Assembly (NCBI GenBank): GCA_017438975.1
Contig: JAFRUH010000027.1
Location: 1 to 40,698 of the forward strand
Source of the DNA: Bacteroidales bacterium
GTDB taxonomy: Bacteria; Bacteroidota; Bacteroidia; Bacteroidales; UBA932
Direction of reading: 5' to 3'
DNA: 40,698 nt
In this document: piece after piece, positions 18,108 through 34,501 of the stretch
How the letters are laid out: every line of letters begins with the position of its first letter
Numbering within the stretch: the stretch's first letter is position 1
Program-made: the position numbers and the translations under genes
Notes under the pieces: model-generated
Told to the model about the DNA's origin: nothing
Databases searched by the model: none
Seen by the model: only the letters and a program-made list of their open reading frames with translations

Positions 18108-19142
18108 CTAGTCGTTGACCCCTTTCATGGCTTCACGGATCTTACCCTCGATCTCTTCGGCGAGTTCGGGGTTGTCCACCATGAGCTGCTTGGTCGCTTC
18201 ACGGCCCTGGGCCAGCTTGGAATCATTGTAGCTGAACCAGGAACCGCTCTTCTTGATGATGTCGAGCTCGACGCCCAGGTCCACGATTTCACCGCTGCGG
18301 GAGATCCCTTCGCCATAAACGATGTCGAATTCCGCCTTCTTGAAAGGAGGGGCCATCTTGTTCTTGACGATCTTGACCTTCACGCGGTTTCCGAGTGCCT
18401 CGTCCCCGTCCTTGATCTGGGCGGCGCGGCGGATGTCGATCCTCACGGACGCATAGAATTTCAGGGCGTTGCCGCCGGTGGTGGTCTCCGGATTCCCGAA
18501 CATGATGCCGATCTTCTCGCGAAGCTGGTTGATGAAGATGCAGCAGGTGTTGGTCTTGGAGATGTTCGCGGTCAGTTTCCGGAGGGCCTGGCTCATCAGG
18601 CGGGCCTGGAGTCCGACCTTGTTCTCTCCCATTTCGCCTTCGATCTCCGCCTTCGGGGTCAGGGCGGCTACGGAGTCGATGACGATGATGTCCACGGCTC
18701 CCGAGCGGATCAGGTTGTCCGCGATTTCGAGTGCCTGTTCGCCGTTGTCCGGCTGGGAAATGAGGAGCGTCTCGAGGTCGACGCCCAAAGCTTTTGCATA
18801 GCTCCTGTCGAATGCGTGTTCGGCATCGATGATGGCCGCGATTCCGCCGGATTTCTGGGCCTCCGCGATCGCGTGGATCGCAAGGGTCGTCTTACCGCTG
18901 GATTCAGGGCCGTAGATCTCGATGATCCTACCCTTCGGATAACCTCCGATGCCCAGGGCATGGTCGAGCGCGATGGAACCGCTCGGAATAACCTGGCTCG
19001 CATCCCATTCTGGCTGATCTCCCAACTTCATGATCGTCCCTTTCCCGTAATCCTTCTCGATCTTGTCGATTGTCGCCTGCAATGCCTTCAGACGGGCGGC
19101 ATTGATTTCGGCGGCGCTCTTTTCTTCAACTGCTTTAGCCAT
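18108..19142 (-). CDS. recA: Recombinase RecA
   Basis: A 344-residue RecA, the strand-exchange ATPase of homologous recombination and the co-protease that triggers UmuD/LexA self-cleavage. Walker [10 protein letters not shown] at 78-86, Walker [11 protein letters not shown], loop L1 around [22 protein letters not shown], loop L2 around [18 protein letters not shown], and an acidic C-terminal tail. Length and motif order are standard. It is transcribed alone from a promoter ~60 bp upstream. A perfect palindrome AATAC-N3-GTATT lies in the promoter spacer and is a possible operator. recX is 3.5 kb away, and umuD/umuC lie within 8 kb. Confidence 0.98.
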
Positions 19143-19174
19143 AATGTAGGTTGTTTAAGTGTTTATTTCCATTC

Positions 19175-19195
19175 GGGAGGTCAAACTTGCCTCCC
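19175..19195 (-). promoter_or_regulatory. Hairpin in the recA leader
   Basis: A 6-bp perfect GC-rich stem (19175-19180 with 19190-19195) around a 9-nt loop lies within the ~55-nt recA leader, just after the transcription start. No U-run follows on the recA strand, so it may stabilise the RNA rather than terminate it. Confidence 0.4.
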
Positions 19196-19202
19196 TTTCT
19201 CG

Positions 19203-19227
19203 CAAAGTTATGAAAATACTCGGTATT
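19203..19227 (-). promoter_or_regulatory. recA promoter with embedded palindrome
   Basis: The minus-strand -7 box TAACTTTG is at 19210-19203. Upstream of it, at 19215-19227, lies AATAC-TCG-GTATT, a perfect inverted repeat with 5-bp arms. It falls between the recA -33 and -7 positions and at about the -25 position of the rlmN promoter (-7 box at 19246-19253), a typical place for a repressor site. Confidence 0.7.
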
Positions 19228-19245
19228 ATAAAGATTTTTTTGTAC

Positions 19246-19253
19246 TATTTTTG
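19246..19253 (+). promoter_or_regulatory. rlmN -7 box
   Basis: TATTTTTG, 17 bp before the rlmN ATG (19271). No obvious TTG at -33. Confidence 0.65.
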
Positions 19254-19270
19254 CAGAGGGTTTTTAAGGT

Positions 19271-20293
19271 ATGAAAACACGGTTGCTGGGAATGAATCCC
19301 GACGAGCTCAGGCAGATCGCCCTGTCTGAAGGACTCCCCGGTTTCACGGGAAAACAGCTGGCGAGATGGATGTACGTAAAGAAGGTCCGCACCCTTGCGG
19401 AAATGACTGACATCCCGCTTTCGGGACGCGAACGTCTCGGAGAGAAATACGAGGTCGGCGTGACCCCGTACGTGGACTGCCAGGTCTCTTCGGACGGAAC
19501 GAAGAAGTATCTGTTCCCCGTTTCCGGTGCCGGGAACGCCGTGGAATCGGTCATGATTCCCGACGCGGACCGGAAGACCCTCTGCGTCTCCTCGCAGGCC
19601 GGCTGCAAGATGGGGTGCCGGTTCTGCATGACCGGACGCCAGGGATTCCACGGGAACCTCTCCGCCGCTGAGATCCTTTCCCAGTTCCTCGCCGTCGACG
19701 AGTCGGACGACCTGACCAACGCGGTTTTCATGGGAATGGGGGAGCCACTGGACAACTGGGACGAGGTACGGCGGGCCATCGAAGTCCTGACGGCCGACTG
19801 GGGTTTCGCCTGGAGCCCGAAACGTATCACCCTGAGCACCATCGGCGTCCTGCCGAACCTGAAGCGCTTTCTGGACGAGTGCCGCTGCCATCTGGCCGTC
19901 AGTCTCCACAATCCCTTCCCGCAGGAGCGCCTCTCGCTCATGCCGGTCGAAAAGGGATACCGGATTTACGATGTCCTGGACCTGATCCGCCAGTATGACT
20001 TTACGGGCCAGCGCCGGGTCAGTTTCGAATATACGATGTTCGGCGGGTTCAACGATTCTTTCCGTCATGCAGACGAACTTGCCCGTCTCCTCCGGGGACT
20101 GGAGTGCCGGGTCAACCTGATCCGTTTCCACCAGATCCCCGATTTCCCGTACCGGACTTCGCCGGATTCCGTCATGGAAGCTTTCCGTGACCGGCTCGGC
20201 CGGCGGGGCGTAACCGCAACGATCCGCGCTTCCCGAGGGGAGGACATCCTCGCCGCCTGCGGGATGCTCGCGGGCAAACACAAGACACTATGA
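19271..20293 (+). CDS. rlmN: 23S rRNA/tRNA adenine-C2 methyltransferase RlmN
   Basis: A 340-residue radical-SAM methyltransferase that makes 2-methyladenosine at A2503 of 23S rRNA and at A37 of some tRNAs. The 4Fe-4S cysteines are C112, C116 and C119 (CKMGCRFC); the second conserved Cys lies near 331 (ILAACGML). Also seen: the N-terminal RNA-binding helical domain (FTGKQLARWMY) and FMGMGEPLDNWD, KRITLSTIG and HQIPDFPY signatures. It starts a rightward operon and overlaps the next gene by 4 bp (ATGA). Confidence 0.96.
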   Translation: MKTRLLGMNPDELRQIALSEGLPGFTGKQLARWMYVKKVRTLAEMTDIPLSGRERLGEKYEVGVTPYVDCQVSSDGTKKYLFPVSGAGNAVESVMIPDADRKTLCVSSQAGCKMGCRFCMTGRQGFHGNLSAAEILSQFLAVDESDDLTNAVFMGMGEPLDNWDEVRRAIEVLTADWGFAWSPKRITLSTIGVLPNLKRFLDECRCHLAVSLHNPFPQERLSLMPVEKGYRIYDVLDLIRQYDFTGQRRVSFEYTMFGGFNDSFRHADELARLLRGLECRVNLIRFHQIPDFPYRTSPDSVMEAFRDRLGRRGVTATIRASRGEDILAACGMLAGKHKTL

Positions 20294-22671
20294 AAAGAAG
20301 TATCCTGATAATCACGGCACTTCTGTGCCTCGTTCCGGCGCTGTCCGCACAGGACCGGGAAGTCTCGGGGTTCGGCCTCGATCCCTCGGACCAGGCAGCC
20401 ATCAAGCAGATCAACGCCAGGATGGACTCGATCCGCAAGTACCGGCCGACGGTCGGTCTGGTCCTTTCCGGAGGCGGGGCGAAGGGAGCCGCCCACGTCG
20501 GTGCGATCCGCTACATCGAGTCGCTGGACATCCCGGTCGACCTGGTGGTCGGGACCAGCATGGGAGGCCTTGTCGGCGGAATGTACGCCCTCGGCTATTC
20601 CCCGCAGTATATGGACTCCCTCATCCGGAGCATCGACTGGGACCTGGCGCTGAGCGACCATGTGGACCGCGCCTATGTGCCGAAGGACCGGAACCGCTAC
20701 AGGGAAACCTATGCCGTTTCGATTCCTTTCCTGTACAGCAACGCCGATTTCCTGTCCATGAGCCACGCTCCGGACGGCTCCGGTCTCCGGCTTTCCGCCG
20801 ACGCGGAGGCGACGCCTCTGGTCCGTCAGAATCTCGTCGGGAGCCTTCCTTCCGGTTTTGTCCAGGGGTTGAACGTAGGGAACCTGATTTCCAGCATTAC
20901 GGTCGGCTATTCCGATACGACCGACTTTTTCCGCCTTCCCATCCCTTACGCCTGCGTTGCGACTGATCTCGTTTCCGGCAAGGCCAAGGTCTGGCATTAT
21001 GGAAGCATCAATACGGCGATGCGGTCGACGATGTCCATCCCGGGTCTGTTCACTCCGGTGCGGACCGGCGGCATGGTCCTCGTGGACGGCGGCATGCGGA
21101 ACAATTTCCCGTCCGACCTGGCCCGCAGGATGGGCGCGGACATCATCATCGGCATCGAACTGTCCGATACGCAGAAGGGATATGACCAGATCCACAATCT
21201 CCTTGACGTCGTCATGCAGAGCGTGGATATGATGAGCAACGATTCGTTCCGCCGGAATCTCCGTATCACGGATCTCAAGATCAAGCCGAACCTCAAGGAG
21301 TATGACATGCTCAGCTTCAACGACGAGGCGATCGACTCCATCCTCAACAGGGGATACGAGGCTGCGGAAAAGAAAAAGGACGGCTTGCTCAAGATCCGTT
21401 CCAAGACCGGAGCCGCCCCTCCCCGCACCCCGGTCCGTTCCGCCGTGGACGTGAATGTCAAACCGGTGCAGGTCGGGGATGTCGAGTTCATCGGCGTCAG
21501 CCCTGTGGAAGCGGAGTACCTGGTCCGGTCGGTCCGCCTCCCCGAGGACCGGATCGTGGACCGGAAGATGCTGGAGGACATTACGGCCAGGCTGTACGGA
21601 ACCGGGTCCTTCGATTATGTGGGGTATGAACTCCGGGGTACCGGCGAACCGTACACCCTCTGCATCATCTGCCGGAAGGGAAGGCTGAACCAGCTGGGTA
21701 TCGGCGTCCGTCTTGACACGGAGGAGATCGTTTCCGCCCTGCTGAACGTCGGTCTCAATGTCCACAGCCTGAGCGGTCATTCCTTTGAATTCACCGGCAA
21801 GGTGGGCTCCAATCCGTATGCGGACCTGCATTACCGTCTCAAGCCGGCGTCCGGCCCGGCCTTCAACTCGAATACGAAATTCAAGTACGTGGACAGGAAC
21901 CAGTTCCGGTTCGAAGACAGCAAGATCAAGGTCAATTACGCGAACTTCCGCCAGGAATTCTCGATTTCGAACATCGGCTGGGACAAGTTCGACATGCAGA
22001 CCGGCATCCGCTATGACTACTACAGCATCGGCGATGTCTTTTCCGACCGGAACATGGATTCGTACAGCCTGGACGAGCTGCTGAATTCGTATTTCACCGG
22101 CTTCTTCCGGGCAGGGTACGATACCTACGACAAGGGGTATTTCCCGAGGACGGGCCACTTTTTCGATTTCGGTTATTCCCTGGTCATGGGTTCCATGTTC
22201 CAGAACAGGTCCATGATCCATATCGTCGACGGCTATTATTCCTCCGCGATGACCGCCGGGAACTGGACTTTCCAACCTTCGCTGGATTTCCGTTTCCTGT
22301 TCCACCGGGACGACATCCCCCTTCCATTCATGAACATGGTCGGAGGACGTATGAGAGGGCGTTACCTCGACCAGCAGATTCCGTTCATCGGGGTCACCAA
22401 CGCGGCGGTCATGCCGCCGGTCCTGGCCATCGCGGCGCTGAATGTCCGCTGGGAGTTCCTGAAGAACAATTATCTGTCAGGTATCGTCAACGTAGGGAAC
22501 GCCAGCTCGGATATCCCGTCGTTCGTGGACCCGAAATACAGCACCCCGCTGTTCGGCGCCGGAGTGGAGTATGCCTACAATTCCATCGTCGGACCGATCA
22601 GGGCGGACCTGCACTGGTCGAACATTACACGCTCCGTGGGCTTTTATCTTTCGCTGGGATATGACTTCTGA
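20290..22671 (+). CDS. Patatin-like phospholipase with BamA-type barrel
   Basis: A 793-residue outer-membrane protein of the PlpD / type Vd secretion kind. After a signal peptide (~1-20, ending LSA-QD) comes a patatin domain: oxyanion loop SGGGAKG at 60-66, nucleophile Ser90 in GTSMGG, and catalytic Asp266 in VDGG, so the Ser-Asp dyad is intact. One POTRA-like segment follows (~395-470, VEFIGVSPVEAEYLVRS), and then a ~16-strand barrel to the C-terminus, which ends in the aromatic beta-signal ...LSLGYDF. The lipase probably hydrolyses phospholipids and is held at or passed through the outer membrane by its own barrel. It is coupled to rlmN upstream and overlaps recX by 11 bp. Confidence 0.93.
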   Translation: MKRSILIITALLCLVPALSAQDREVSGFGLDPSDQAAIKQINARMDSIRKYRPTVGLVLSGGGAKGAAHVGAIRYIESLDIPVDLVVGTSMGGLVGGMYALGYSPQYMDSLIRSIDWDLALSDHVDRAYVPKDRNRYRETYAVSIPFLYSNADFLSMSHAPDGSGLRLSADAEATPLVRQNLVGSLPSGFVQGLNVGNLISSITVGYSDTTDFFRLPIPYACVATDLVSGKAKVWHYGSINTAMRSTMSIPGLFTPVRTGGMVLVDGGMRNNFPSDLARRMGADIIIGIELSDTQKGYDQIHNLLDVVMQSVDMMSNDSFRRNLRITDLKIKPNLKEYDMLSFNDEAIDSILNRGYEAAEKKKDGLLKIRSKTGAAPPRTPVRSAVDVNVKPVQVGDVEFIGVSPVEAEYLVRSVRLPEDRIVDRKMLEDITARLYGTGSFDYVGYELRGTGEPYTLCIICRKGRLNQLGIGVRLDTEEIVSALLNVGLNVHSLSGHSFEFTGKVGSNPYADLHYRLKPASGPAFNSNTKFKYVDRNQFRFEDSKIKVNYANFRQEFSISNIGWDKFDMQTGIRYDYYSIGDVFSDRNMDSYSLDELLNSYFTGFFRAGYDTYDKGYFPRTGHFFDFGYSLVMGSMFQNRSMIHIVDGYYSSAMTAGNWTFQPSLDFRFLFHRDDIPLPFMNMVGGRMRGRYLDQQIPFIGVTNAAVMPPVLAIAALNVRWEFLKNNYLSGIVNVGNASSDIPSFVDPKYSTPLFGAGVEYAYNSIVGPIRADLHWSNITRSVGFYLSLGYDF

Positions 22672-23137
22672 GAATAAGGATGAGAAGGCGGTCCTCCTCC
22701 GCCTGCAGAGGCAGTGCTCCCGGATGGAGTACTGCCGGAGCGATATCCATCGCAAGGCGCTGAAAGCGCTGGACGGTGACGCCGAAGCGGCCGGACGGGT
22801 GGTTTCATCCCTCGTCGAAGACCGTTTCGTGGACGATCTGCGCTATGCCTCGGCCTTCGCCCGGGAAAAAGCTTCCCTTCAGGGCTGGGGCAAGGTCAAG
22901 ATTACCTACCAGCTCCGCGGGAAGGGCATTCCGGACGAAATCATCCGGGAGGCGCTCGGTGAGATCGACGACGATAAGGCCGCAGTCCGTCTGGAAAAGG
23001 TCGTCTCCGAAAAATTCAGGACCCTGAAGGGCGACCCGCAGTGCAAACTGAAACTGCTCAAATTCGTCCTCGGCAGGGGATACGGGTATGACGAGGCGGC
23101 TCCGGTCGTGGATCGGATCCTCAGGGAAGAAGGGTAA
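22661..23137 (+). CDS. recX: Regulatory protein RecX
   Basis: A 158-residue RecX, an inhibitor that caps and destabilises RecA filaments. The typical helical repeat pattern is seen: LQRQCSRMEYCRSDIHRKA, FVDDLRYASAFAREKA, WGKVKITYQLRGKGI and the third repeat ending GRGYGYD. The start at 22661 overlaps the barrel gene by 11 bp; the longer in-frame extension lies inside it. In many bacteria recX follows recA directly; here it is the last gene of the rlmN operon 3.5 kb away and is read toward the opposite side. Its end overlaps the convergent gene by 17 bp. Confidence 0.92.
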   Translation: MTSENKDEKAVLLRLQRQCSRMEYCRSDIHRKALKALDGDAEAAGRVVSSLVEDRFVDDLRYASAFAREKASLQGWGKVKITYQLRGKGIPDEIIREALGEIDDDKAAVRLEKVVSEKFRTLKGDPQCKLKLLKFVLGRGYGYDEAAPVVDRILREEG

Positions 23138-23939
23138 GGCGGTATTTGACGCTTCCCCAGTTCATGAAACATAATGCATTCTCCGGAACGGCATCCCCGT
23201 TCCGGAGCGCTTTTCTCTCCCAAGTGACGGGATCGACGGAGAAAAGCACCGGAGCCCGCAACCCTTCCGGCCGGAACCCGAGACGGCGGTAGACTTCACC
23301 CTCGGACCACTCCCGGTCGGCATAGCTCATCACATCCTCCGGTCCGGCGTCTCGGATGAAGGTTTGCAGGACCTTGCCCATCCCTCCGGTCACCCGTACG
23401 TCCGGCAGCGATGCATAGCGGATCCATTCATGGGAGGCTACGCTCCGGTTTCCGACTGTGAACCTTCTGGCATTGGAGAAACTGGCAGCTGCGACGAGGC
23501 TTCCCTCCGGAATGCCGGAAACCTCCTTTTTCGTGAACAGACCGTACCGGAACCGGGCGCTGGCCGCCCCGTAGCTGTGGAAGGCGTCGAAGAAGGCGTC
23601 TGCTTCCGGGCGGACGGCCCGGCGGACTTCACAGTCCCGGGCAAAGACGGACCGGAAGGTCCCGAGATGGGCCGAGAGGCGGGCCCGGAGGATGGCACCG
23701 GACCGTCTCCAGCGGTCTTCCGGAAGGATAATGGCCCAGGGGCGATCCCCGCGTAGCACCGAGACCCGCCGGGCCCGTTCCTCCGCTTCAGCGGCCGTAT
23801 GTTCCCGGATCGGAACGGCGATGACCGAGAAGGGCCTCTCTTCCTCGTCGAACACGGTGATGTCCCCCGCGCAGCATTCGGTGAAGCGCCTTCCGCTCGC
23901 GTGGAGAAACGATCTGATTTCTTCCGTGAATCCTTCCAT
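23121..23939 (-). CDS. Unknown protein with GNAT-like C-terminal half
   Basis: A 272-residue cytoplasmic protein. The start at 23939 (MEGFTEEIRSFL) follows a -7 box closely; the longer open frame upstream crosses the promoter region. The N-terminal ~100 residues (CCAGDITVFDEEERPF) are unfamiliar. From about residue 115 the pattern resembles an acetyltransferase-type fold: GLFTKKEVSGIPEGSLVAAASF, WIRYASLPDVRVTGGMGKVL, and SYADREWSEGEVYRRLGF near 223-240. The last motif also occurs in phage and plasmid proteins of uncertain activity. No substrate can be named. It is divergent from umuD and shares its promoter region, so it could belong to the same damage response; that is inference. Confidence 0.75.
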   Translation of the reverse strand: MEGFTEEIRSFLHASGRRFTECCAGDITVFDEEERPFSVIAVPIREHTAAEAEERARRVSVLRGDRPWAIILPEDRWRRSGAILRARLSAHLGTFRSVFARDCEVRRAVRPEADAFFDAFHSYGAASARFRYGLFTKKEVSGIPEGSLVAAASFSNARRFTVGNRSVASHEWIRYASLPDVRVTGGMGKVLQTFIRDAGPEDVMSYADREWSEGEVYRRLGFRPEGLRAPVLFSVDPVTWERKALRNGDAVPENALCFMNWGSVKYRLTLLP

Positions 23940-23947
23940 GACGGATG

Positions 23948-23977
23948 CAAAGATACGAAACAAAATGATTATCTTTG
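23948..23977. promoter_or_regulatory. Divergent promoter pair between GNAT-like gene and umuD
   Basis: CAAAGATA (23948-23955; reads TATCTTTG leftward) and TATCTTTG (23970-23977; rightward) form a perfect 8-bp inverted repeat with a 14-bp spacer. Each is a -7 box for the gene on its side. The spacing means only one polymerase can bind at a time. A TTCGAA palindrome at 23979-23984 covers the predicted umuD start site. No LexA box I know is visible. Confidence 0.75.
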
Positions 23978-24006
23978 TTCGAATCATTCTCCTCAGTACG
24001 AAGATC

Positions 24007-24483
24007 ATGGAAGACCCTGCACTTTTGCTGACTCCGGTCCCGCAGGACGGGCCCGTCACCCCCGAAGGCCTGCCGGGGATGGCCCTGGAGGCCGTCCACG
24101 CCGGATTCCCCTCGCCGGCCCAGGATTATATGAATCCCTGCATCGATCTCAATGCGGAGCTGGTCCGCCATCCCGTTGCCACCTATTACGGCCGGGTCGT
24201 GGGCGATTCGATGGTCGATGCCGGGGTCGATGAGGGGGATATTCTCGTCATCGACAAATCCCTCGATCCCTCGGAGGGGGACATGGCCGTTTGTTTCGTG
24301 GACGGCGAGTTCACGCTCAAGACCATCTCTTTCAAGGATCCGTCGACCGGGAAGGCCCCCCTCGCGCGGAACGGACTCTGGCTCCTGCCGGCCAACCGTT
24401 CCTATCCTCCGATCCATATCACCGATTCCAACGACTTCACCGTCTGGGGAATCGTCACCTACATCATCAAGAAAGTCAAATGA
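24007..24483 (+). CDS. umuD: UmuD-like self-cleaving S24 peptidase
   Basis: A 158-residue UmuD-type protein, the partner of the error-prone polymerase UmuC. It has the cleavage site Ala32-Gly33 in HAGFPSPA, the catalytic Ser68 in GDSM and Lys105 in FTLKT, so RecA-stimulated self-cleavage should work. There is no N-terminal winged-helix domain, ruling out a LexA repressor. The start (MEDPALL) is 30 bp after a -7 box. Its stop overlaps the ATG of the M64 peptidase gene (ATGA at 24480-24483) instead of that of umuC, as would be usual. recA and recX are nearby. Confidence 0.95.
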   Translation: MEDPALLLTPVPQDGPVTPEGLPGMALEAVHAGFPSPAQDYMNPCIDLNAELVRHPVATYYGRVVGDSMVDAGVDEGDILVIDKSLDPSEGDMAVCFVDGEFTLKTISFKDPSTGKAPLARNGLWLLPANRSYPPIHITDSNDFTVWGIVTYIIKKVK

Positions 24484-25721
24484 AACGTCTGCTAATTTCC
24501 GGAATCCTCCTGCTCTCCTGCGCCTCGCTCCTGCAGGCAGGGGATTTCGATCGGTGGTTCGAAGATGCGACCCTCCGTCTGGATTATGTTTTCTGCGGGA
24601 ATGCCTCGAAGCAGGAGATCTTTTTCTCCGAAGCCTTCCGGACATCGGAGTGGGCCGGTCGCCGGACCCGGCTTGACGAAGTGCTCCTGGAGGGGAACGG
24701 ACAGATCCGCCTGACCGATCCTGAAACGGATAAGGTCCTCTATGTCAACAGTTTCTCGACTCTGTTCCAGGAGTGGACCTCCTATGAGGAGGCGACCCTC
24801 GTCGATCGGGCTTTCGAGAATTGTTTCCAGGTGCCCTTCCCGAAGGCCCCCGTCAGGGTTACCGTGACCCTCACGGACAACCACCGCAAAGTCTCCGCCC
24901 GGATGAGCCATATCGTGGATCCGGCCGACATCCTGATCCGTCCGCTCTCCGACAACGGTCATTCACGTACGGTTCTCCACCGGGGAGGCGATCCGCAGCG
25001 GGCCTGCGATGTCGTCATCCTGGCGGAAGGCTATACCGCCGCGGAGAAGCCGAAATTCTACCGGGATGCCGCCCGGACCGTGGAAGCCCTGCTCTCCCAC
25101 GAGCCCTTCGCCTCCCGGAAAGACTGTTTCAATTTCACGGCCGTAGCCCCCGTTTCGGATGATTCCGGGGTCAGCATCCCGCACAAGGGAGTCTGGAAGC
25201 GGACGCCGGCCTCCTCCCATTTCGATACCTTCTATGTCGACCGGTATCTGACCACGGCGAACATGAAAGATGTCTACGACGCAATCGGCACCGTTCCTTT
25301 CGAACATGTCATCGTACTCGCCAACACGCCCGTATACGGGGGCGGGGGAATCTTCAATTCCGTGACCATCATGGGCTCCGACCACCCGACCTTCCGGGTG
25401 GTGATCGTCCATGAGTTCGGTCACGCCTTCGCGGGCCTTGCCGACGAGTATTACTACGACGACATGTACGAACCGATGTATCCCGCCGACACCGAGCCCT
25501 GGGAACCGAATATCACGACGAAGGTCGACTTCGCATCCAAGTGGCAGGACCTTCTCGAGGCCGGAAAGGCAGGCATTTTCGAAGGAGCCGGCTATTCTTC
25601 CAAGGGCGTTTTCCGTCCGGCGGACGACTGCCGGATGAAGACCAATACCTGTCCCGATTTCTGCCCGGTCTGCACCCGGGCCATCAACCGGATCATCGAT
25701 TATTATACGGCGGGGGAGTGA
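24480..25721 (+). CDS. M64-family (IgA-peptidase-like) exported metallopeptidase
   Basis: A 413-residue zinc peptidase of the M64 family. The signal peptide (MKRLLISGILLLSC...LLQA) may be cleaved after residue 20, or lipidated at Cys14. Residues ~20-165 form the N-terminal beta domain seen in Bacteroidota M64 proteins; the catalytic domain starts near DVVILAEGYT (178-186) and has HEFGHAFAGLADEY at 311-324 (HExxH zinc ligands plus the downstream Asp/Glu). CPDFCPVC near the end may bind metal or form disulphides. Family members include a peptidase that cleaves IgA, but many do not; the substrate is unknown. It is coupled to umuD upstream (ATGA) and umuC downstream (TGATG), an unexpected site for an exported enzyme. 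Confidence 0.92.
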   Translation: MKRLLISGILLLSCASLLQAGDFDRWFEDATLRLDYVFCGNASKQEIFFSEAFRTSEWAGRRTRLDEVLLEGNGQIRLTDPETDKVLYVNSFSTLFQEWTSYEEATLVDRAFENCFQVPFPKAPVRVTVTLTDNHRKVSARMSHIVDPADILIRPLSDNGHSRTVLHRGGDPQRACDVVILAEGYTAAEKPKFYRDAARTVEALLSHEPFASRKDCFNFTAVAPVSDDSGVSIPHKGVWKRTPASSHFDTFYVDRYLTTANMKDVYDAIGTVPFEHVIVLANTPVYGGGGIFNSVTIMGSDHPTFRVVIVHEFGHAFAGLADEYYYDDMYEPMYPADTEPWEPNITTKVDFASKWQDLLEAGKAGIFEGAGYSSKGVFRPADDCRMKTNTCPDFCPVCTRAINRIIDYYTAGE

Positions 25722-26983
25722 TGTTCCTCCTGGTGGACTGCAACAACTTTTTCGTGTCTTGCGAAAGGGCCTTCCAGCCGCAGCTGGAAGGGAGGCCGGT
25801 TGTCGTCCTGTCCAATAACGACGGCTGCGTCGTCGCCAGAAGCAACGAGAGCAAGGCGATGGGAATCAAGATGGGCACCCCGTTCTTCAAGGTCCGAGCC
25901 CTCGTGGACAGCGGCGCCCTCGAGGTCCGTTCCTCCAACTATACCCTGTACGGGGACCTTTCCTCCCGCGTGATGTCGATCCTCCGTGACTTTGCCCCGA
26001 AACTGGAAGTCTATTCCATCGACGAGGCTTTCCTCGTGATGGACGGAATCCCCCTGGAACGGCTGAAAGCGATTGCCGGGGAGATCATCCGCCGGGTCCG
26101 CCGCTGGGTGGGCATACCGGTCAGTGTCGGCATCGCCCCGACCCGTACCCTTGCGAAGGTCGCGAACCATTTCGCCAAGCGCTATTCCGGGTACAGGGGC
26201 GTCTGTGTCATCGATACCGATGAAAAACGGGAAAAGGCGCTGGCCCTGACCCCGATCGACGATGTCTGGGGAATCGGCTGGCGGAACGCCCCGAAACTGG
26301 AGAGGGTCGGAGTCCATACCGCCGCGGACTTCACGGCGAGGCCCCAGGAGTGGGTCCGGACCCTGATGGGAGTCATCGGGGTCCGGACCTGGATGGAGCT
26401 TCGCGGAACGCCCGTTATCGGGGAGGAGGAACGCGAGCGGAGACAGACCATCTGCACCTCCCGGTCTTTCGCCGATATGATCACCGAACCGGAAGAATTA
26501 TCGCTGCGGGTTTCCGATTTCGCGGCGATCTGCGCCCGGAAACTGCGGGACGAAGGTTCCGTCGCCGGAACGATCGGCGTCTTCCTGATGAGCAACCGTT
26601 TCCGGGATGACCTGGAACAGTATTTCCCGCAGGACCTGGAGCATTTCGACATCCCCACCAGCAATACGCCCGAGATCGTCGCCGCATCCCTGAAAATCAT
26701 GAAGCGGATCTATCGGGAGGGAATCCGCTACAAGAAGGCGGGCGTGATCGTGATGGATATCCAGGACGCCCGTTTCGTCCAGCCGGACCTGTTCGACGCG
26801 AAAAAGGAAGAGCGTCTCAGGAATGACCGGATTTCCAGGATCATGGACCAGGTCAACGTTACGGGACGGCAATATCTCCGTCTGGCGGTCCAGCGTCCCG
26901 GCCATTATGCCGACGGCATCCGGATGGAACACCGTTCGGGGCGATTTTCCACGGATTGGTCCGAGTTGATGGAAATACACTGA
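25721..26983 (+). CDS. umuC: Error-prone DNA polymerase V subunit UmuC
   Basis: A 420-residue Y-family polymerase that copies past DNA lesions with UmuD'. The start at 25721 shares one base with the preceding stop (TGATG) and follows a purine-rich GGGGGAG, a rare good ribosome-binding site in this window. Motifs: metal-binding FLLVDCNNFFVSCE at the N-terminus, SNNDGCVVARSNE, catalytic YSIDEAF near 99-105, GIAPTRTLAKVAN, and thumb helix-hairpin-helix around DDVWGIGWRNAPKL. Near the C-terminus QPDLF looks like the sliding-clamp motif. It is full length with all acidic residues, so it is predicted active. Confidence 0.96.
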   Translation: MFLLVDCNNFFVSCERAFQPQLEGRPVVVLSNNDGCVVARSNESKAMGIKMGTPFFKVRALVDSGALEVRSSNYTLYGDLSSRVMSILRDFAPKLEVYSIDEAFLVMDGIPLERLKAIAGEIIRRVRRWVGIPVSVGIAPTRTLAKVANHFAKRYSGYRGVCVIDTDEKREKALALTPIDDVWGIGWRNAPKLERVGVHTAADFTARPQEWVRTLMGVIGVRTWMELRGTPVIGEEERERRQTICTSRSFADMITEPEELSLRVSDFAAICARKLRDEGSVAGTIGVFLMSNRFRDDLEQYFPQDLEHFDIPTSNTPEIVAASLKIMKRIYREGIRYKKAGVIVMDIQDARFVQPDLFDAKKEERLRNDRISRIMDQVNVTGRQYLRLAVQRPGHYADGIRMEHRSGRFSTDWSELMEIH

Positions 26984-26989
26984 CCCCGG

Positions 26990-27925
26990 TCAGTCTTCGA
27001 TGACGAGCCCGTCGTACGCGGGAAGGACGACGGAGCGGATTCCCTTTTCCTTGCACATACCTTCCAAGTCGCGGCAGAACGCCTCGTGGGTGGGGAATGA
27101 GTGGCTCAGATGCGTCAGCCATGTGTGGGCTGCTCCGATCCGGTCCGCCAGGGCAAGGGCTTCGTCCAGGGAGAAATGGGAATGGTGCGGCTTGTATCCC
27201 ACCGTATTGAGGGTCAGGTGCGAGAGTCCCTTCAGTTTTCCGAATTCCGATTCCGGAATCGAACTCATGTCGGTGATATAGGCGATGTTCCCGAAGCGGA
27301 ATCCGAGGACGGGCAGTTTGTCGTGGTAGCCCCTGATCGGGATGATCCGGGCGCAGCCTTCCCCGCTGAAAGTCCCTTCCGGAGCCGCTTCGGCCGGCTT
27401 TATGGAGGAATCGGACTCCCGGAGCGACCCGTCCGGCATCTGCTGGTAGTAGCCTTTGTCATGGACCCAGATCAGGTCCCCTTCCATTCGGGAGGACCGG
27501 ACCAGGAAGGGATCCGCCCCGATGGTATGGACATGCCATTCCGGCGCTCCCGGGTACTTGTGTTCCTCGAACGCATAACCGTATTCCCTGCGGAGGGACA
27601 CGAGTACGGGCTCCTCGCAATAGATGTCGACAGCGTGTCTGTCGGTATAGTTGAGGGAGCGGACATCGTCGAGGCCGCCGGTGTGGTCCTTGTGGTTATG
27701 GGTCAGGAGGATCGCATCCAGGTGGCAGATATCCCGGGAGAGCATCTGCATCCGGAAGTCCGGTCCGGCGTCGACGAGGATGGTCAGTCCGGCATATTCC
27801 ACGACGGCCGAGGCGCGGAAACGCTTGTCCCTCGCATCTTCTGAGCGGCAGACCGCGCAATGGCATCCGATGATCGGAATGCCCTGGGACGTCCCGGTCC
27901 CCAGGAATGTCAGTTTCGCTTTCAT
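26990..27925 (-). CDS. PhnP-like metallo-beta-lactamase-fold hydrolase
   Basis: A 311-residue MBL-fold phosphodiesterase-like protein. It has the N-terminal FLGTGTSQGIP and a CHCAVC-type zinc site, then the metal motif THNHKDHTGGLDD at ~75-87 and HSHFSLDEA near the C-terminus. Relative to typical ~255-residue members it has an insertion of about 50 residues in the middle (EYGYAFEEHKY through EAAPEGTF), before the catalytic Asp strand YITDMS. PhnP acts on cyclic ribose phosphates; many Bacteroidota homologues have no assigned role. The ATG overlaps the mtaB stop (ATGA), so it is the last gene of the tamB-mtaB transcript. It converges on umuC with 6 bp between. Confidence 0.9.
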   Translation of the reverse strand: MKAKLTFLGTGTSQGIPIIGCHCAVCRSEDARDKRFRASAVVEYAGLTILVDAGPDFRMQMLSRDICHLDAILLTHNHKDHTGGLDDVRSLNYTDRHAVDIYCEEPVLVSLRREYGYAFEEHKYPGAPEWHVHTIGADPFLVRSSRMEGDLIWVHDKGYYQQMPDGSLRESDSSIKPAEAAPEGTFSGEGCARIIPIRGYHDKLPVLGFRFGNIAYITDMSSIPESEFGKLKGLSHLTLNTVGYKPHHSHFSLDEALALADRIGAAHTWLTHLSHSFPTHEAFCRDLEGMCKEKGIRSVVLPAYDGLVIED

Positions 27926-29169
27926 ATCGTTACGCTCTCTACGGTTCCGGCCTTTCCCGGATCATACGGACGCTCAAGGCGGATGTAATTCCCCGTATAG
28001 CCGCCCATCATTCCGTCGTGGACGGAGGACTCCCAGAGTACCTTTTCGGGGAGCCCCCGGTTCTCCTCGACGAACCTTTCGTGCAGTTCCCGGCACAAGG
28101 CCTCCAGCTTCGCGACCCGTTCGGTCTTGATGCCGTCCCGGACCTGGTCCTTCATCGCGGCGGCCCGGGTCCCGGGACGGCGCGAGTAAGGGAAGATATG
28201 GATGAAAGCCGGTTTGATCCGGTCGCGGAGGAAGGTGAGGGTTTCCTGGAAGAGTTCTTCCGTTTCTCCCGGGAGACCGACGATGACATCGATCCCGAAG
28301 AACACTTTCGGAGCCCCCGGCGTCTCCAGGACTTTTCGGATATAATCGATCCTTGAAGCGAAGAGGGCCGTGTCATATCTCCTTCCGACCTTGCGGAGGA
28401 GGGTGTCGCTGCCGCTTTGCAGCGGAATGTGGAAATGGCGCTGGAACTTCGTCCCCGAAGCGATCCAGTCGATGATTTCTTCCGAGATGAGGTTCGGCTC
28501 GATCGAAGAGATCCGGTACCGCTCGATCCCTTCCACCCTGTCGAGGGCCTTGAGAAGACCGAGGAAGCTTTCTCCCGTCGTCCGTCCGAAATCCCCGGTA
28601 TTGACCCCGGTGAGGACGATTTCTTTAATCCCTTGGGCTGCAATTTCTTCCGCCTGTCGGACAGCCTCGCATACCGGGATGTTGCGGCTTTCTCCCCGGG
28701 CGAATGGAACGGTGCAGTAGGCGCAGTAGTTGTTGCAGCCGTCCTGGACCTTCAGGAAGGAGCGGGTCCTCTCTCCGCTGGAATAGGCTTCCAGCGTTTC
28801 TCCCTCCGGGACGGGCAGGCCGTCAGAAAGGCCGAGCATCATCAGCAGTTCGGGGACGATCCTTTTCTTCTCTTTCGCACCGAATACCCGGACTACGCCT
28901 TCGATTCCGAGAATCTCCTCCCTTCGGAGGGCGGCGTAACAGCCGGTAACGGCGATCGGGGCATCCGGGGCGAGTTTGTGGGCCTTCCGGATCAGGTTCC
29001 TGGATTTCTTCTCGGCGGTCTGGGTGACGGCGCAGGTGTTGATCAGGTAGGCGTCCGCCGGTTCGTCCCAGGAGACCGGCTCGCATCCGTGCTCGCGGAG
29101 GCCTCTTTCATAGGTGGAGGTCTCTGCGTAATTCAGCTTGCAGCCAAGGGTCGTGAAGGCAACTTTCAT
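27922..29169 (-). CDS. mtaB: tRNA t6A37 methylthiotransferase MtaB
   Basis: A 415-residue radical-SAM enzyme that adds a methylthio group to t6A at tRNA position 37. The N-terminal domain carries three cysteines for the second cluster (LGCKLNYAE, NTCAVT, GCYA), and the radical SAM motif is CNNYCAYC near 145-152. A C-terminal TRAM-like region covers the last ~60 residues. It is separated by 6 bp from the SAM methyltransferase upstream. TsaD, which makes the t6A it modifies, is encoded 8 kb upstream on the same strand, giving two successive steps of one pathway in the window. Confidence 0.95.
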   Translation of the reverse strand: MKVAFTTLGCKLNYAETSTYERGLREHGCEPVSWDEPADAYLINTCAVTQTAEKKSRNLIRKAHKLAPDAPIAVTGCYAALRREEILGIEGVVRVFGAKEKKRIVPELLMMLGLSDGLPVPEGETLEAYSSGERTRSFLKVQDGCNNYCAYCTVPFARGESRNIPVCEAVRQAEEIAAQGIKEIVLTGVNTGDFGRTTGESFLGLLKALDRVEGIERYRISSIEPNLISEEIIDWIASGTKFQRHFHIPLQSGSDTLLRKVGRRYDTALFASRIDYIRKVLETPGAPKVFFGIDVIVGLPGETEELFQETLTFLRDRIKPAFIHIFPYSRRPGTRAAAMKDQVRDGIKTERVAKLEALCRELHERFVEENRGLPEKVLWESSVHDGMMGGYTGNYIRLERPYDPGKAGTVESVTI

Positions 29170-29175
29170 GGGATT

Positions 29176-29889
29176 CTATGCGAGCAGTAGGAATACACAG
29201 GGGCGTTTGTCGATGACGAGTCCGGCTTTTTTCCACGCGGCGACTGTGCGGGTGCGGATGAAGGCGTCCGGCAGGGTCAAGTTCGCCGCGACCGTGAGCC
29301 GGGTCCGGTCCGAGCAGGTCGAGAGCAGGTCCTTGAACAGCGAATCGTTCCGGTAGGGAGTTTCGATGAAGATCTGGGTCTGATTCTCGGCGGCGGACCG
29401 CTTTTCGATCTTCCGGATCGCCGCCTTGCGCTCATCCGTCTTGGCCGGAAGGTAGCCGCAGAAAGCGAAGGACTGTCCGTTCAGTCCCGAACCCATCAAG
29501 GCCAGCATCAGGGAGGAGGGACCGGTGAACGGAACGACCCGGATCCCTTCCCGGTGGCAGATCGCGACGAGTTGGGCGCCGGGATCGGCGACGGCCGGGA
29601 GTCCGGCCTCCGAAATCAGTCCGACATCCTGTCCGCCGTCGAACAGATGGACATAGTTTTCGACCTCGGCGGGAGCGGTGTGTTCGTTGAGTTCGTGGAA
29701 TTCCAGTTCTCCGATATGTCCCTTCAGACCTGCCCTGGAGAGGTATCGGCGGGCGGTCCTGATCTCTTCGACGACGAAGACTTTCAGCCGGCGGGCCGTT
29801 TCGAGAGCGGGCGCCGGGATGACTTCCGAGGGGTCATTCTCCCCGAGAGGGGAGGGGATCAGATACAGGGTTCCTCTATTCATTGTCAT
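29176..29889 (-). CDS. SAM-dependent methyltransferase, RsmI-related
   Basis: A 237-residue tetrapyrrole-methylase-fold protein, a paralogue of RsmI but with a divergent sequence (LYLIPSPLGENDPSEVIPAP; SEAGLPAVADPG; GPSSLMLALMGSGLNGQ). This subgroup is widespread in Bacteroidota and its substrate is unproven; rRNA or tRNA is a reasonable guess. The IETPYRND motif matches the YESPYR of RsmI. It overlaps the tamB end by 14 bp, or by 8 bp with the alternative start at 29883 (MNRGTLY). A true RsmI also exists in the window (16070-16852). Confidence 0.88.
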   Translation of the reverse strand: MTMNRGTLYLIPSPLGENDPSEVIPAPALETARRLKVFVVEEIRTARRYLSRAGLKGHIGELEFHELNEHTAPAEVENYVHLFDGGQDVGLISEAGLPAVADPGAQLVAICHREGIRVVPFTGPSSLMLALMGSGLNGQSFAFCGYLPAKTDERKAAIRKIEKRSAAENQTQIFIETPYRNDSLFKDLLSTCSDRTRLTVAANLTLPDAFIRTRTVAAWKKAGLVIDKRPCVFLLLA

Positions 29890-32800
29890 TGATTGGATTA
29901 GCTTTTCCCGTCGAGTCGATCTGGAGGGTTACCATCCTGCTTCCCATATACTGGCCGGAACGTTCTTCGCGCTTGGACTTGGGGGCGAAGAGTTCCCTGA
30001 CGAACTGGCGGAAGGAATCGAATTCCCGCTGGTAGGCGATACCGGCGCCGCTCCGCTGACTGTTGTCCAGGTAATTGGTGTATTTGTCTGCGGAATGGGA
30101 GAACAGGTTCAGCCGGAGGGTTCCGGGACGGTTCATCTTGACGTCGATGTCGAGGTCTCCGACGACTTCGTCCGTGGTCCCCGCCGTCCCGTACTGACGG
30201 CTTCCGATCGTGCCGTTGACGATGACCCGGTTGTTGAACAGCTGGGTCGAGAGGGCGACGTCGAAGATGTCGGCTCCCTGCTCCGTGGACTCGTAATTGA
30301 GCCCGAGGTCGAGCGGGATGTCGAGCTTTTGGAAGATATTGTTGAGCTGCCCTGCCATGATGCTCGAGACATTGCTGTAGAGCATGCTGCTGGAATTGTT
30401 GACGATTCCGGACTGCTCGCTGGGAAGGAAGCTGTTCGCCACCAGCAGGTAGACGAACTGTTTCTGGATATTGTCCTCGGTGTTGAGGGCGCTGGAAACC
30501 AGGGCCTGGGTCGTCGGGTCTATGTCCGGGATGTCGATGGAGAACTTGACCTGCGGGTTCCGGAGCTTGTCCGTGATCTTGATTCCGCAGTTGACGGTAC
30601 GCCGGGTCGTCGCGGCGGTTTCATCCGCGAGGAGGTTCGCCAGGGACGCCTTGGTCACGTAGAGCCCGTCGATATTCAGGTCGGAGTCCATGATGTCTCC
30701 GTTGAAACGCACCGAACTTCCGTTCTGGAGGGTGAAGTCCCGGTTCACGATTCCGAGGGCGGAGAATTTGAAGTTGCCGGAGGTCAGGGTGTAATCTCCG
30801 TTGATGGTGAAGAGTTCGTTGCTCGTCCGGGTCTCGATTTCGATGGTCCCGGATCCCTGTCCGGTCAGTCCGCTGCCTGAAGCCTTGTCGATTTCGACGT
30901 GGGCGGTCACGTCCGGCGTGGCCCGGATCCTCAGTTTGACACCTAGGTCGGAGGACTTTTTCCGCGTCGAGGTAAAGCGCTGCATCATCAAGTCATACGG
31001 ATCGATATAGACTTCCTTCTCCTCTTCCGTAAACGTCAGCAGGTCCATCGATTTGTTCGATACGCTGTTCCCGAGGGGAATATGGAGGTCGCCCTGCCGG
31101 TCGGTCGTCGCGTCGACGTTGATGAGGACATTCTCGAATGGCCCGGTAACGGCCACCCTGCCGCTTCCGTAAACGGTTCCGTAGAAGGTGCTGTTCATCG
31201 CGCCGGTCAGGTCGAGGGCGAGCATTTCCTGCATCCGGACAAGGACATCCAGCCTCGGGTCCTGGAAAAGGTCATGGAACCGGATGCCTCCGGAGAGGGT
31301 GCCCTTTCCTTTCTGTCCGTCCGTCAGGTCCATATTGAGGAACTTGAGTCCGTCCCGGTCGACCGATACCGGACCGGAGACCCGGTATGCTACATTCGTG
31401 AACCCGATCTTGAGGAGTCCGTCCCGGATCGCCGCATCTTCGCTGGAAATGTCAAGTTTGTTGAGCGGGCCCTTCAGGCGGAACTTGCCGTCGAGAAGGC
31501 CTTCCGTACGGCTGAATACGCTCTCGAGAACAGGAGCGGCGTAGCCGAGGTTGAACCCGTCCATCTGGGCCAGGATATCGAGATTCCGGTCGGATGGCCG
31601 GAAGAATCCGTTGATATCGAAGTTGTTATGTCCGTCAAGGTCGTTCTTCGCCAGGATATCGAACCGCTTGGCTTCCTCGTTCCAGGAACTCTCCAGGCGG
31701 ATCTGTCCGGCTGGATGTCCGGCGATGGCCGTAGAGTCGCAGATAAGGTTCACGAGCATTCCCGGCTGAGGCTTGGACGGGGAGATGAGGAACGCTTTTC
31801 CGGTCGCTTTCCCCCGGATGTCCATTTTCATCGGAATCAGGGAATTGGCGATCGAAAGGTCGAATTTTTCCATTTTGACGGTCAGCGTGTCCGCTTTTCC
31901 GGGAGACAGGCCGCCGTCGACCAGAAGGGTCTGGTCTTCGCAGAAGGCACGCAGCTGATGGATGTCCAGGTTCTTGTCTTTCAAGCAGATATCGTCGGAA
32001 TGCAGTTCCCAGGTCTTTCCGTCGTAGGTGATCTGCGAAGGAAGGGCGCGGGCGGTCAGGGAGAGAATCCCGGCCTCGTCACGCAGGAAATCCCCGTTCA
32101 GGTAGACGGAACCGTTATCTTCATCCCCGTTCCTGTAGTTGTAGCTGATTCCTACCCGGTTGTCCTCTGCGAAGAGGGAACCGCTGTTTTCATGGAACTG
32201 GATGCCGGCGACATTGATTTCCGGACTCGTGAACGTGCCGACGAGGCCGTTCCCGCTGTTGTCCAGGTCGAGGCTGAGCCGCTTGACATAGTTATTCCCG
32301 AAAGCGAGCCGTCCGGAGCGGACGTTCCCCTTCAGGACTCCGTCGGAAGCGATTTTCAGCCGTACCGCGGTACTGTCGGCGATGTAAAGCCCGGGCAGGG
32401 CGAAGGACAGGAGGTCCCTCGAATCGTGGAAATTCAGGGCCAGGTCATAGGTCGTTCCGTCCCAGATGGAGGCGTCCTTTCCGGAGAGGGCGGGGAGTTC
32501 CTTGTCCAGGGTCAGGTTGCGGATATCCTTCGCCATCTTGAAAATGGACTTTGAACTGAGATAGGTTCCGTCCGCGAAAGAGGAGTTGAGCCTGATCCGG
32601 TGGACTTCGTCGTTGGAATGGGAGAGGATCGAGATATTGCCGATATCGTGGCGTCCGTCCTCGTTCTCGAGGATCAGGTCGGCCACGCTGATGTCACCGA
32701 TGATGTCTTCTTTGTTGACATACATGAAGTCGGCGTTGGTTCGGAACGACACCTTGGATTTTCCCCGCTTGTCGATGTTGAGGGCGTTCAGGTCTGCATA

Positions 32801-34453
32801 TCCCACGTTCGCATAGAACTGATAGGCGGCGTTCTTGGTCGAACTGGAGAGGTTGAAGAGGCCCTGGAGGATGAAATTCAGATTCTTGTCGTGGCAGACG
32901 ATCCGGCCGTCGAAAGCTTCGTTCGAGTAGGTCCCCGTGGCCCATATGTCCGAATAATCGTACCCGAGAGCGTTGAGGCGGGAGATCCGGAGGGAATCGA
33001 TGACGACCTCGGGACCTTTTTTCGCGAGGGTCGCCCCCAGGCGGGTCTCGAGGGTGAGCTGGCGTACGGCGTCGGTCCCGATGATCGGGCCGAGGTCGAG
33101 ATCCATCGTCCGGATCCGTCCTTTTATGGCCATATCCTTTCCGGGATCGAGGAGGTGGCGGATGTCCAGATTGGCGACCGCCTCTCCGAGGGAGGGGGAT
33201 GCGAGGGTGCCGTCAATATGGACGTTGTTGACCGGACCTTTCCCTTTCCCATTGAAAGTCAGTGTCTTCCCCGGGGCTATCTTCCCGAGGTCCACCGTCA
33301 CGCCCGGGGCCCATTCATGGATCAGTTTTCCGAGGCCGTCGGAGGTGAAAGCAAGGTTCTTGACCTCGAAATCGGTCTTCATCCCGGTGACGTCCGGGAG
33401 CCCCGAGACGCGTCCGGAAATCATTCCGCTGACCTGACTGCCGGAATCCTTGAAGGCGATCCGGCTGACCTGCAGGTCGCTGACCGGTCCGTCGACGCTG
33501 CCCTGGATATCCGCCCGGAACGTATTACCCTTGAGGCCGGGAGCGAAATAGCGGATGGAACGCATGTCCAGGAGGGACGGCTTGATATCGCCCCGGATCC
33601 GGACATCCTCCAGGAAATTGGAGAAGGCGCTGACATCCTTATAGCTCATTTGGAGCCGGTCGATGTCGAGGTTGGAGAAACTGTCCTTGAGCCGGAGGCC
33701 CTTGATCAGGGTCTCACCTACGCCGACCCTGGCGAATCCGGAAAGCTCTGCCGTATACCCGCTCTTTTCCCGGATCCGAACCTTGTCGGCCGTTCCGGAC
33801 ATGATGCTGTGGGAGAAACGGAGATTCCTTCCTTTCGCGTCCGCTTTGATTTCCAGGTTGTTCCAATCAATTGCGTCTTTCGGGATCACGCGTCCTTCCT
33901 CCCGGTAGGAACGTGCGAGTCCGAAATTGGAGAGGCGGAAGGTGAAGTTCTCGATATCGTACCGGTCTATGTCGAAAAGGTTTCCGGTATCCTCAGGAGC
34001 ATCGTCATTCTTTGCCAGATGGAAGATCCGGGCCAGGTTGGAGGTCGATTCCCCCAGCGAATCCCGTTCCGTCGTCAGGTTGAATTCGGCATCTTTGATG
34101 ACCGCACGCTTGATATGGACCCCGCCGCCCGAGAGCAGGTTCTTTACGGAAAGGGTCGCCGCGATATAACCCGCGCGGACGAAAGTGTCGACGACCGGAA
34201 GGGAAGTTCCGGCGGTATCGGTGCAAGGATGCTTGTCCACGATGAGGACATCCTTGAGGATGACGGCGTTGACCGGCCTGATGCTGACGCTGCCGACTGA
34301 TATTTCTCCGTCGATGTTCTTTTCCAGGGCGGAAACGGCCTTCTTGGCGAGAAAAGTCTGGACGGGAGGGAACTGGACGGCGAACAGCAGCAACAGCAGT
34401 ATCAGAAGAACTGCCGCCAGGATCCGGAGCGTTATTTTCAGAGCCTTTCTCAT
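29876..34453 (-). CDS. tamB: TamB/AsmA-like giant envelope protein
   Basis: A 1525-residue protein: one N-terminal membrane helix (~9-28, ILAAVLLILLLLLFAV), an AsmA-like start, a very long repetitive beta-rich middle (~100-1150, a beta-taco groove in known members), and the conserved TamB domain at ~1160-1480 (ESTEQGADIFDVALSTQLFNNR). Such proteins span the periplasm and are thought to carry phospholipids to the outer membrane; with TamA/TamL they also help insert some outer-membrane proteins. No barrel partner is adjacent here, though the patatin-barrel gene is in the window. The ATG at 34453 is preferred; an adjacent TTG adds one residue. A -7 box ends only 7 bp before it. Confidence 0.92.
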   Translation of the reverse strand: MRKALKITLRILAAVLLILLLLLFAVQFPPVQTFLAKKAVSALEKNIDGEISVGSVSIRPVNAVILKDVLIVDKHPCTDTAGTSLPVVDTFVRAGYIAATLSVKNLLSGGGVHIKRAVIKDAEFNLTTERDSLGESTSNLARIFHLAKNDDAPEDTGNLFDIDRYDIENFTFRLSNFGLARSYREEGRVIPKDAIDWNNLEIKADAKGRNLRFSHSIMSGTADKVRIREKSGYTAELSGFARVGVGETLIKGLRLKDSFSNLDIDRLQMSYKDVSAFSNFLEDVRIRGDIKPSLLDMRSIRYFAPGLKGNTFRADIQGSVDGPVSDLQVSRIAFKDSGSQVSGMISGRVSGLPDVTGMKTDFEVKNLAFTSDGLGKLIHEWAPGVTVDLGKIAPGKTLTFNGKGKGPVNNVHIDGTLASPSLGEAVANLDIRHLLDPGKDMAIKGRIRTMDLDLGPIIGTDAVRQLTLETRLGATLAKKGPEVVIDSLRISRLNALGYDYSDIWATGTYSNEAFDGRIVCHDKNLNFILQGLFNLSSSTKNAAYQFYANVGYADLNALNIDKRGKSKVSFRTNADFMYVNKEDIIGDISVADLILENEDGRHDIGNISILSHSNDEVHRIRLNSSFADGTYLSSKSIFKMAKDIRNLTLDKELPALSGKDASIWDGTTYDLALNFHDSRDLLSFALPGLYIADSTAVRLKIASDGVLKGNVRSGRLAFGNNYVKRLSLDLDNSGNGLVGTFTSPEINVAGIQFHENSGSLFAEDNRVGISYNYRNGDEDNGSVYLNGDFLRDEAGILSLTARALPSQITYDGKTWELHSDDICLKDKNLDIHQLRAFCEDQTLLVDGGLSPGKADTLTVKMEKFDLSIANSLIPMKMDIRGKATGKAFLISPSKPQPGMLVNLICDSTAIAGHPAGQIRLESSWNEEAKRFDILAKNDLDGHNNFDINGFFRPSDRNLDILAQMDGFNLGYAAPVLESVFSRTEGLLDGKFRLKGPLNKLDISSEDAAIRDGLLKIGFTNVAYRVSGPVSVDRDGLKFLNMDLTDGQKGKGTLSGGIRFHDLFQDPRLDVLVRMQEMLALDLTGAMNSTFYGTVYGSGRVAVTGPFENVLINVDATTDRQGDLHIPLGNSVSNKSMDLLTFTEEEKEVYIDPYDLMMQRFTSTRKKSSDLGVKLRIRATPDVTAHVEIDKASGSGLTGQGSGTIEIETRTSNELFTINGDYTLTSGNFKFSALGIVNRDFTLQNGSSVRFNGDIMDSDLNIDGLYVTKASLANLLADETAATTRRTVNCGIKITDKLRNPQVKFSIDIPDIDPTTQALVSSALNTEDNIQKQFVYLLVANSFLPSEQSGIVNNSSSMLYSNVSSIMAGQLNNIFQKLDIPLDLGLNYESTEQGADIFDVALSTQLFNNRVIVNGTIGSRQYGTAGTTDEVVGDLDIDVKMNRPGTLRLNLFSHSADKYTNYLDNSQRSGAGIAYQREFDSFRQFVRELFAPKSKREERSGQYMGSRMVTLQIDSTGKANPINDNE

Positions 34454-34460
34454 CAATTTA

Positions 34461-34468
34461 CAAATATA
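34461..34468 (-). promoter_or_regulatory. tamB -7 box
   Basis: TATATTTG on the minus strand; only TAAATTG separates it from the tamB ATG. Transcription would begin at or within a few bases of the start codon. No clear -33 box. Confidence 0.65.
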
Positions 34469-34501
34469 GTAAAAATCTGACGGACTCCGTATCCTTTGCG
34501 G

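Follow-up and report, generated by a model that had tools for sequence, protein, structure and literature searches.

An M64 metallopeptidase gene between umuD and umuC in a two-species lineage of Bacteroidales

The umuD-M64-umuC locus and its conservation

We analyzed a stretch of 40,698 nucleotides from a Bacteroidales bacterium (contig JAFRUH010000027.1 of GenBank assembly GCA_017438975.1), referred to here as the window, in which a gene for a metallopeptidase of family M64 separates umuD from umuC, the genes for the two subunits of DNA polymerase V (Pol V). This triad order is unusual and was seen only in one lineage of two species. The window's genome (G000) comprises 2.8 Mb in 33 contigs and is 98.48% complete. 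It has a single match to umuC. The M64 family is matched at three places, and among these the one at the umuDC locus alone matches the window protein at an E value of 1e-30.

The three genes lie on the same strand (Table 1) and are joined by overlaps. ATGA joins umuD to the M64 gene, and TGATG joins the M64 gene to umuC, its stop codon TGA and start codon ATG having one base in common. The three look like one operon. UmuD reached 142 bits against a cut-off of 110 on NCBIfam model NF007621 (Pol V autoproteolytic subunit), and the best NCBIfam match of UmuC was the model for Pol V UmuC, yet at 339 bits it remained under the cut-off of 431. The UmuD translation contains the A32-G33 cleavage site along with S68 and K105, and HEFGH and SIDEA are found in the M64 and UmuC translations, respectively. 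When the sequence was re-read, the coordinates, strand, overlaps and intact motifs given in a preliminary description of this DNA were all borne out, as was its proposal of a single operon, with which the overlaps, the common strand and the order kept in a sister species agree. Read by eye, the N-terminus of the M64 protein looks like a signal peptide, and the M64_N domain begins at residue 22.

The solved structures nearest to the M64 protein were 4DF9/9QDI (E 8.1e-138, 391 query residues aligned) and 3P1V (E 3.7e-134), identified in excerpts of PMC12402451 as BF3526 of Bacteroides fragilis (4DF9, 9QDI) and BACOVA_00663 (3P1V). In an alignment to BF3526, numbered by a presumed shift of 17 from the chain positions, which fits the named cysteines, the residues given in those excerpts are matched at H311, H315 and D322 (zinc ligands), at E312 (the base) and, in the second zinc site, at E323 and three cysteines, and the zinc motif HEXXHXXXGXXD is present as HEFGHAFAGLAD. 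The BF3526 substrate residues E97, R255, Y256, Y286 and Y324 are likewise kept. According to the same excerpts, BF3526 acts on the N-termini of predigested proteins and not on intact IgA, and peptide turnover or nutrient acquisition is suggested as its role.

A GTDB scan found the sister species RUG13467 (genome G239, whose locus L153 is the same stretch, matched by coordinates). It has the identical umuD-M64-umuC order with both overlaps kept. The window and L153 are collinear over 17 kb with 79% DNA identity, and protein identities are 91% for UmuD, 86% for M64 and 87% for UmuC. The M64 gene has 413 codons in both, with a nonsynonymous rate (dN) of 0.089, a synonymous rate (dS) of 1.25 and a dN/dS of 0.071. 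For rlmN, patatin, umuD, umuC, mbl, mtaB and rsmI the ratio was 0.045-0.096, with umuC at 0.045, and the divergent gene upstream of umuD, designated d23, stood apart at 0.128; these NG86 ratios are rough, as dS values of 1.05-1.85 are near saturation, and recX is excluded from the set. The M64 gene is under purifying selection in this two-species lineage. Because RUG13467 keeps the order, the M64 length and a low dN/dS, both misassembly and decay of the gene can be dismissed. An artefact of assembly or binning could be imagined for a window drawn from a 33-contig assembly, but it is refuted by RUG13467, a separate record in which DNA of 79% identity has the same triad, and we give this explanation practically no weight.

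Table 1. Features of the umuD-M64-umuC locus and its surroundings, in positions of the window
Feature	Position	Strand	Remarks
umuD	24007-24483	+	158 aa; S24 self-cleaving subunit of Pol V; Peptidase_S24 PF00717 (1.9e-20)
M64 metallopeptidase gene	24480-25721	+	413 aa; Peptidase_M64 PF09471 (1e-64), M64_N PF16217 (7.4e-44)
umuC	25721-26983	+	420 aa; Y-family polymerase subunit of Pol V; IMS PF00817 (8.4e-37), IMS_C PF11799, DUF4113 PF13438
TATCTTTG, match to TAnnTTTG	23970-23977	+	Likely operon promoter; kept as TATATTTG in L153
Second TAnnTTTG	23948-23955	-	Likely promoter of the divergent gene at 23121-23942; kept in L153
d23, unnamed gene divergent from umuD	23121-23942	-	No Pfam match
recX, end of the rlmN-patatin-recX run	22661-23137	+	PF02631; in relatives M64 or umuDC follows
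recA	18108-19142	-	99% identical to the L153 homologue; putative name, from the sequence
FAD, oxidoreductase-like gene beside tsaD and tamB	34502-36076	-	Putative name; M64 or umuDC comes next to it, following it, in other species

The names recA, tamB, tsaD, rsmI, FAD, thyA, dhfr and maf are putative and were given from the sequences; a Pfam search of the gene named rsmI gave no match. In the window, recA, recX, umuD and umuC all lie within 9 kb (18108-23137 and 24007-26983). Several members of the genus likewise have umuDC near a recA-rlmN-recX run (L266, L268-L272, and L267 without recA in the stretch), and d23 lies near umuDC, in varying orientation, in L040, L041, L046, L239, L248 and L266-L269.

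Occurrence of M64 and umuDC among related genomes

Among the 149 genomes of the family, umuC and M64 were each matched in 83, and comparison of the two match tables placed them adjacent in G000 only, with a separation of ~12 kb in G086. In the 400 genomes of the genus, umuC was matched in 217 and M64 in 230. Both places were among the matches listed for 20 genus genomes, and in two of these, G000 and G239, M64 lay at most 12.5 kb from umuC. The two are ~8 kb apart in G423, which is 82% complete. From the genomes of the family and the genus we fetched 57 distinct umuC loci, and only in that of G239 does M64 separate umuD from umuC.

The starting assumption that umuD and umuC are normally adjacent proved nearly right. 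The fetched flank (~1.5 kb) contained umuD in 52 of the 57 umuC loci, and umuD was not found in this flank of L043, L109, L110, L119 and L124; a few pairs depart from adjacency, being divergent, convergent or spaced. The two genes are divergent in G415 (L098/L239) and convergent in G493 (L120/L245) and G398 (L249), and a gap of ~0.4-0.5 kb separates them in L042 and L063. The order of the umuDC pair is labile in the genus.

When M64 loci were taken as the starting point, L153 was the one locus among 80 from GTDB with a clear umuC in its flank; 60 of the 80 had 3 kb or more of sequence on each side, and the flank was short in 20. At L218, a 34% match to umuC over 150 residues, divergent from M64, was taken for another Y-family polymerase. 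Viral contigs yielded six umuC relatives of 36-40% identity, in five of which umuD adjoins umuC and none of which has M64. Over the 88 M64 loci that were checked for neighbours, the gene belongs to several unrelated runs: it is found in the vicinity of dhfr/thyA-like or of maf-like genes, following tsaD-FAD next to tamB, or following recX. Apart from the one sister species, the relatives examined have umuD and umuC adjacent and M64 elsewhere, the pattern that the preliminary description named as one that would refute its reading. Among the open-licence PMC papers searched by these terms, we found none that mentions umuC together with peptidase M64 or treats the genomic context of the Bacteroidales umuD operon.

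Promoter elements and regulators

The element TATCTTTG upstream of umuD matches TAnnTTTG, which we take to be the consensus of the Bacteroidetes -7 element. It is the sole match on the + strand in 23000-27100; the window as a whole has eight on this strand. The two elements between umuD and d23 are back to back and kept in L153, and the region between the element and the umuD start codon is poorly conserved between the window and L153; we read this as a plain constitutive promoter. Against the promoter reading, TAnnTTTG occurred near the start in only 9 of 63 umuD upstream regions of relatives.

A search for the LexA DNA-binding domain (PF01726) gave no match in G000 and was positive in 10 of the 14 genomes that served as controls, these not including Bacteroides ihuae. 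A search of G000 for the S24 domain returned umuD alone. Excerpts of PMC8565304 describe S24-family SOS repressors of Bacteroidetes with two DNA motifs, report that both groups are absent from Bacteroidales, and note that self-cleavage of E. coli UmuD is stimulated by RecA. Since there is no match to the LexA helix-turn-helix (HTH) and the single S24 gene is umuD, neither LexA nor an S24 SOS repressor of the type described in those excerpts is seen in G000.

Of the two published Bacteroidetes SOS motifs, CTAA-N5-TTAG had zero matches in the window, even at one mismatch, and GGA-N5-TCC had none in 23943-24006. Over the whole window GGA-N5-TCC occurred 61 times against 28 expected from shuffles; these copies are dispersed, were not taken as sites and perhaps reflect coding bias. 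Exact palindromes were also compared over the 63 umuD upstream regions, for which start codons were chosen by script in relatives of varying closeness. Palindromes with 4-base arms were common to at most 4 of the 63 (mean 2.8 and largest 4 in 20 shuffles).

Origin of the triad and comparison with known systems

We consider it probable that the triad is a lineage-specific insertion, in which a BF3526-type M64 gene is a passenger in a constitutive umuDC operon and has no part in mutagenesis. In the common ancestor with RUG13467, a gene for an exported peptidase of this type would have come between umuD and umuC, the recipient being a umuDC cassette beside recA-rlmN-patatin-recX; in the other relatives examined, M64 is elsewhere. 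The three genes would probably be carried on one transcript from the TATCTTTG promoter and be translated by way of their overlapping stop and start codons. Transcription is probably constitutive because no known SOS repressor was found in G000. DNA damage would act post-translationally, through RecA-stimulated self-cleavage of UmuD as in E. coli. The peptidase, presumably exported, would act on the N-termini of partly digested proteins and play no part in mutagenesis.

The history could also have run in reverse, with M64 already resident behind recX when the pieces d23-umuD and umuC arrived around it. This order would account for the M64 genes that lie without umuDC directly after recX in 11 distinct genomes (17 loci, collapsed by sequence), and for an M64 tree of 108 rows in which the window gene falls in a 34-member clade (support 0.94, with weak support inside) that includes recX-linked M64 genes. 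It is opposed by a midpoint-rooted tree, drawn without support values from 26 rows of rlmN, patatin and recX proteins, in which G000 and G239 group with G415 and G511 while the recX-M64 clade is separate. In G415 the recX end carries umuDC and d23, and in G511 neither is near recX; both genomes are absent from the genus M64 matches, and G511 is absent from the genus umuC matches as well. A d23-umuD-umuC unit without M64 also exists in L040 and L041. We favour umuDC as the first resident, with M64 entering later, because the tree groups the lineage with two genomes that have no M64 match, and entry into an existing umuDC cassette is favoured because the d23-umuD-umuC unit occurs without M64; arrival of M64 before umuDC is rather unlikely. 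Repeats in the stretch were weak, and none was found at the M64 junctions by a boundary-repeat search for transposition, the one search for mobile elements that was made. A different departure from the insertion reading concerns function. It had been proposed in the preliminary description that the operon is induced by DNA damage, such that a secreted peptidase would be made in the stress response and would link stress from host defence to proteolysis. The overlapping genes, the intact motifs and their retention in two species are in keeping with this, as are the presence of recA and recX in the same window and a slight co-occurrence of umuC and M64. Against it stand the absence from G000 of a match to the LexA DNA-binding domain and of any S24 gene besides umuD, the failure of known Bacteroidetes SOS motifs to appear in the regions searched, the lack of a palindrome in more than 4 of the 63 umuD upstream regions, the reported absence of both regulator groups from Bacteroidales (excerpts of PMC8565304), and the confinement of the adjacency to one two-species lineage. 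The claim of damage induction is left without support by these results, and so is the link to host defence, the peptidase resembling BF3526, which excerpts of PMC12402451 report to be inactive on intact IgA. With its activity judged from BF3526, a host-defence role of the window M64 is unlikely because BF3526 is reported there to target predigested N-termini. Induction by DNA damage, with the peptidase as part of the response, thus appears very improbable to us.

The ends of two gene runs accommodate both M64 and umuDC. Besides the recX-linked genes above, M64 follows tsaD-FAD at 8 distinct loci, seven from GTDB and one from G481. umuDC follows recX in G235 and G392 and is tail to tail with it in G397 and G415; nine distinct genomes have umuDC behind FAD (L099-L103, L106-L108 and L112), as does G228 with ~1.3 kb between. 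At the tsaD-FAD end beside tamB, M64 was observed in L189, L200, L208, L212, L220, L222, L224 and L279, and umuDC in L242-L244 and L250. M64 lay at most 6.5 kb from recX in 14 of 54 genomes and from FAD in 2 of 55, and the corresponding counts for umuC were 5 of 58 (recX) and 11 of 58 (FAD), with ~0.3 expected in each case at random; these are counts of related genomes among the matches listed, and the numbers are no statistical test. The two ends were themselves at most 12.5 kb apart (recX to FAD) in 1 of 92 genomes, G000, where ~1 would be expected at random, and they are 12.9 kb apart in G239. In G000 and G239 the recA-recX block and the tamB-FAD-tsaD block are close together (22661-37114 in the window), with the triad between them.

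These counts would be explained if the recX end and the tsaD-FAD end were common sites where umuDC and M64 settle repeatedly, through hotspot recombination or because the two genes benefit from a common expression setting. We find this unlikely, as the counts represent related genomes and not independent events, M64 is found in other gene runs too, and the M64 junctions showed no repeat. It is more doubtful still that umuDC and M64 were drawn repeatedly to these two operon ends, the one following recX next to recA and the one following tsaD-FAD next to tamB, through selection on their joint output, such as peptide scavenging combined with mutagenic repair, and were fused into one operon in this lineage, where the home blocks of the two slots are at most 13 kb apart. 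If the shared slots represent repeated independent events, they would suggest either that operon ends serve as landing sites or that mutagenic repair has an unsuspected connection with an exported peptidase. It is these slots that merit further study.

Several of our results weigh against a chance insertion into a constitutive operon. Two genomic slots are common to M64 and umuDC, which pure accident would not predict. umuC and M64 were both matched in 139 of the 400 genus genomes against 125 expected (Fisher p 0.004, uncorrected for kinship and completeness). Palindromes with 5-base arms were common to 3 of the 63 upstream regions (largest value in 20 shuffles, 2) and those with 6-base arms to 2 (largest, 1), too few to name an operator; related sequences may explain this slight excess, which leaves room for an unknown operator. 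A gene absent from G000, at 98.48% completeness, might be merely missing, and the survey sampled one genome per species, mostly metagenome bins. Insertion of M64 as a passenger remains the explanation that we prefer. Nothing that we found ties the peptidase to DNA damage, and the arrangement looks like a local oddity of the lineage that is real and has been kept. It would represent a polymerase operon that took in an unrelated gene while purifying selection maintained both ends, in a group whose UmuDC apparently operates with no known SOS repressor.

The locus resembles the known umuDC (Pol V) operon in that UmuD has the S24 domain, the cleavage site and the Ser/Lys pair, UmuC has IMS and IMS_C, and umuD is 5' of umuC on the same strand. 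It differs in that umuD is not directly followed by umuC, since an unrelated gene for a putatively exported peptidase lies between them, and in that neither a LexA HTH nor a published SOS box was found here. The non-canonical LexA proteins of Bacteroidetes described in excerpts of PMC8565304 would be the expected regulators of umuDC in that phylum, but G000 has no S24 gene besides umuD, and these groups are reported there to be absent from Bacteroidales. IgA proteases of the ThomasA-type M64 are large multidomain proteins, whereas the window M64, at 413 aa, has no domains other than M64_N and M64, and IgA proteases in the PDB match it solely at residues 177-228 (E 4.7e-7 to 1.5e-5). Its closest likeness is to BF3526, assigned to M64 cluster CL-I in excerpts of PMC12402451, with which it shares an M64_N domain before the M64 domain and the same zinc-site residues. 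The window M64 differs from BF3526 in having T for N304, as read from the alignment, and in its position within a umuDC operon.

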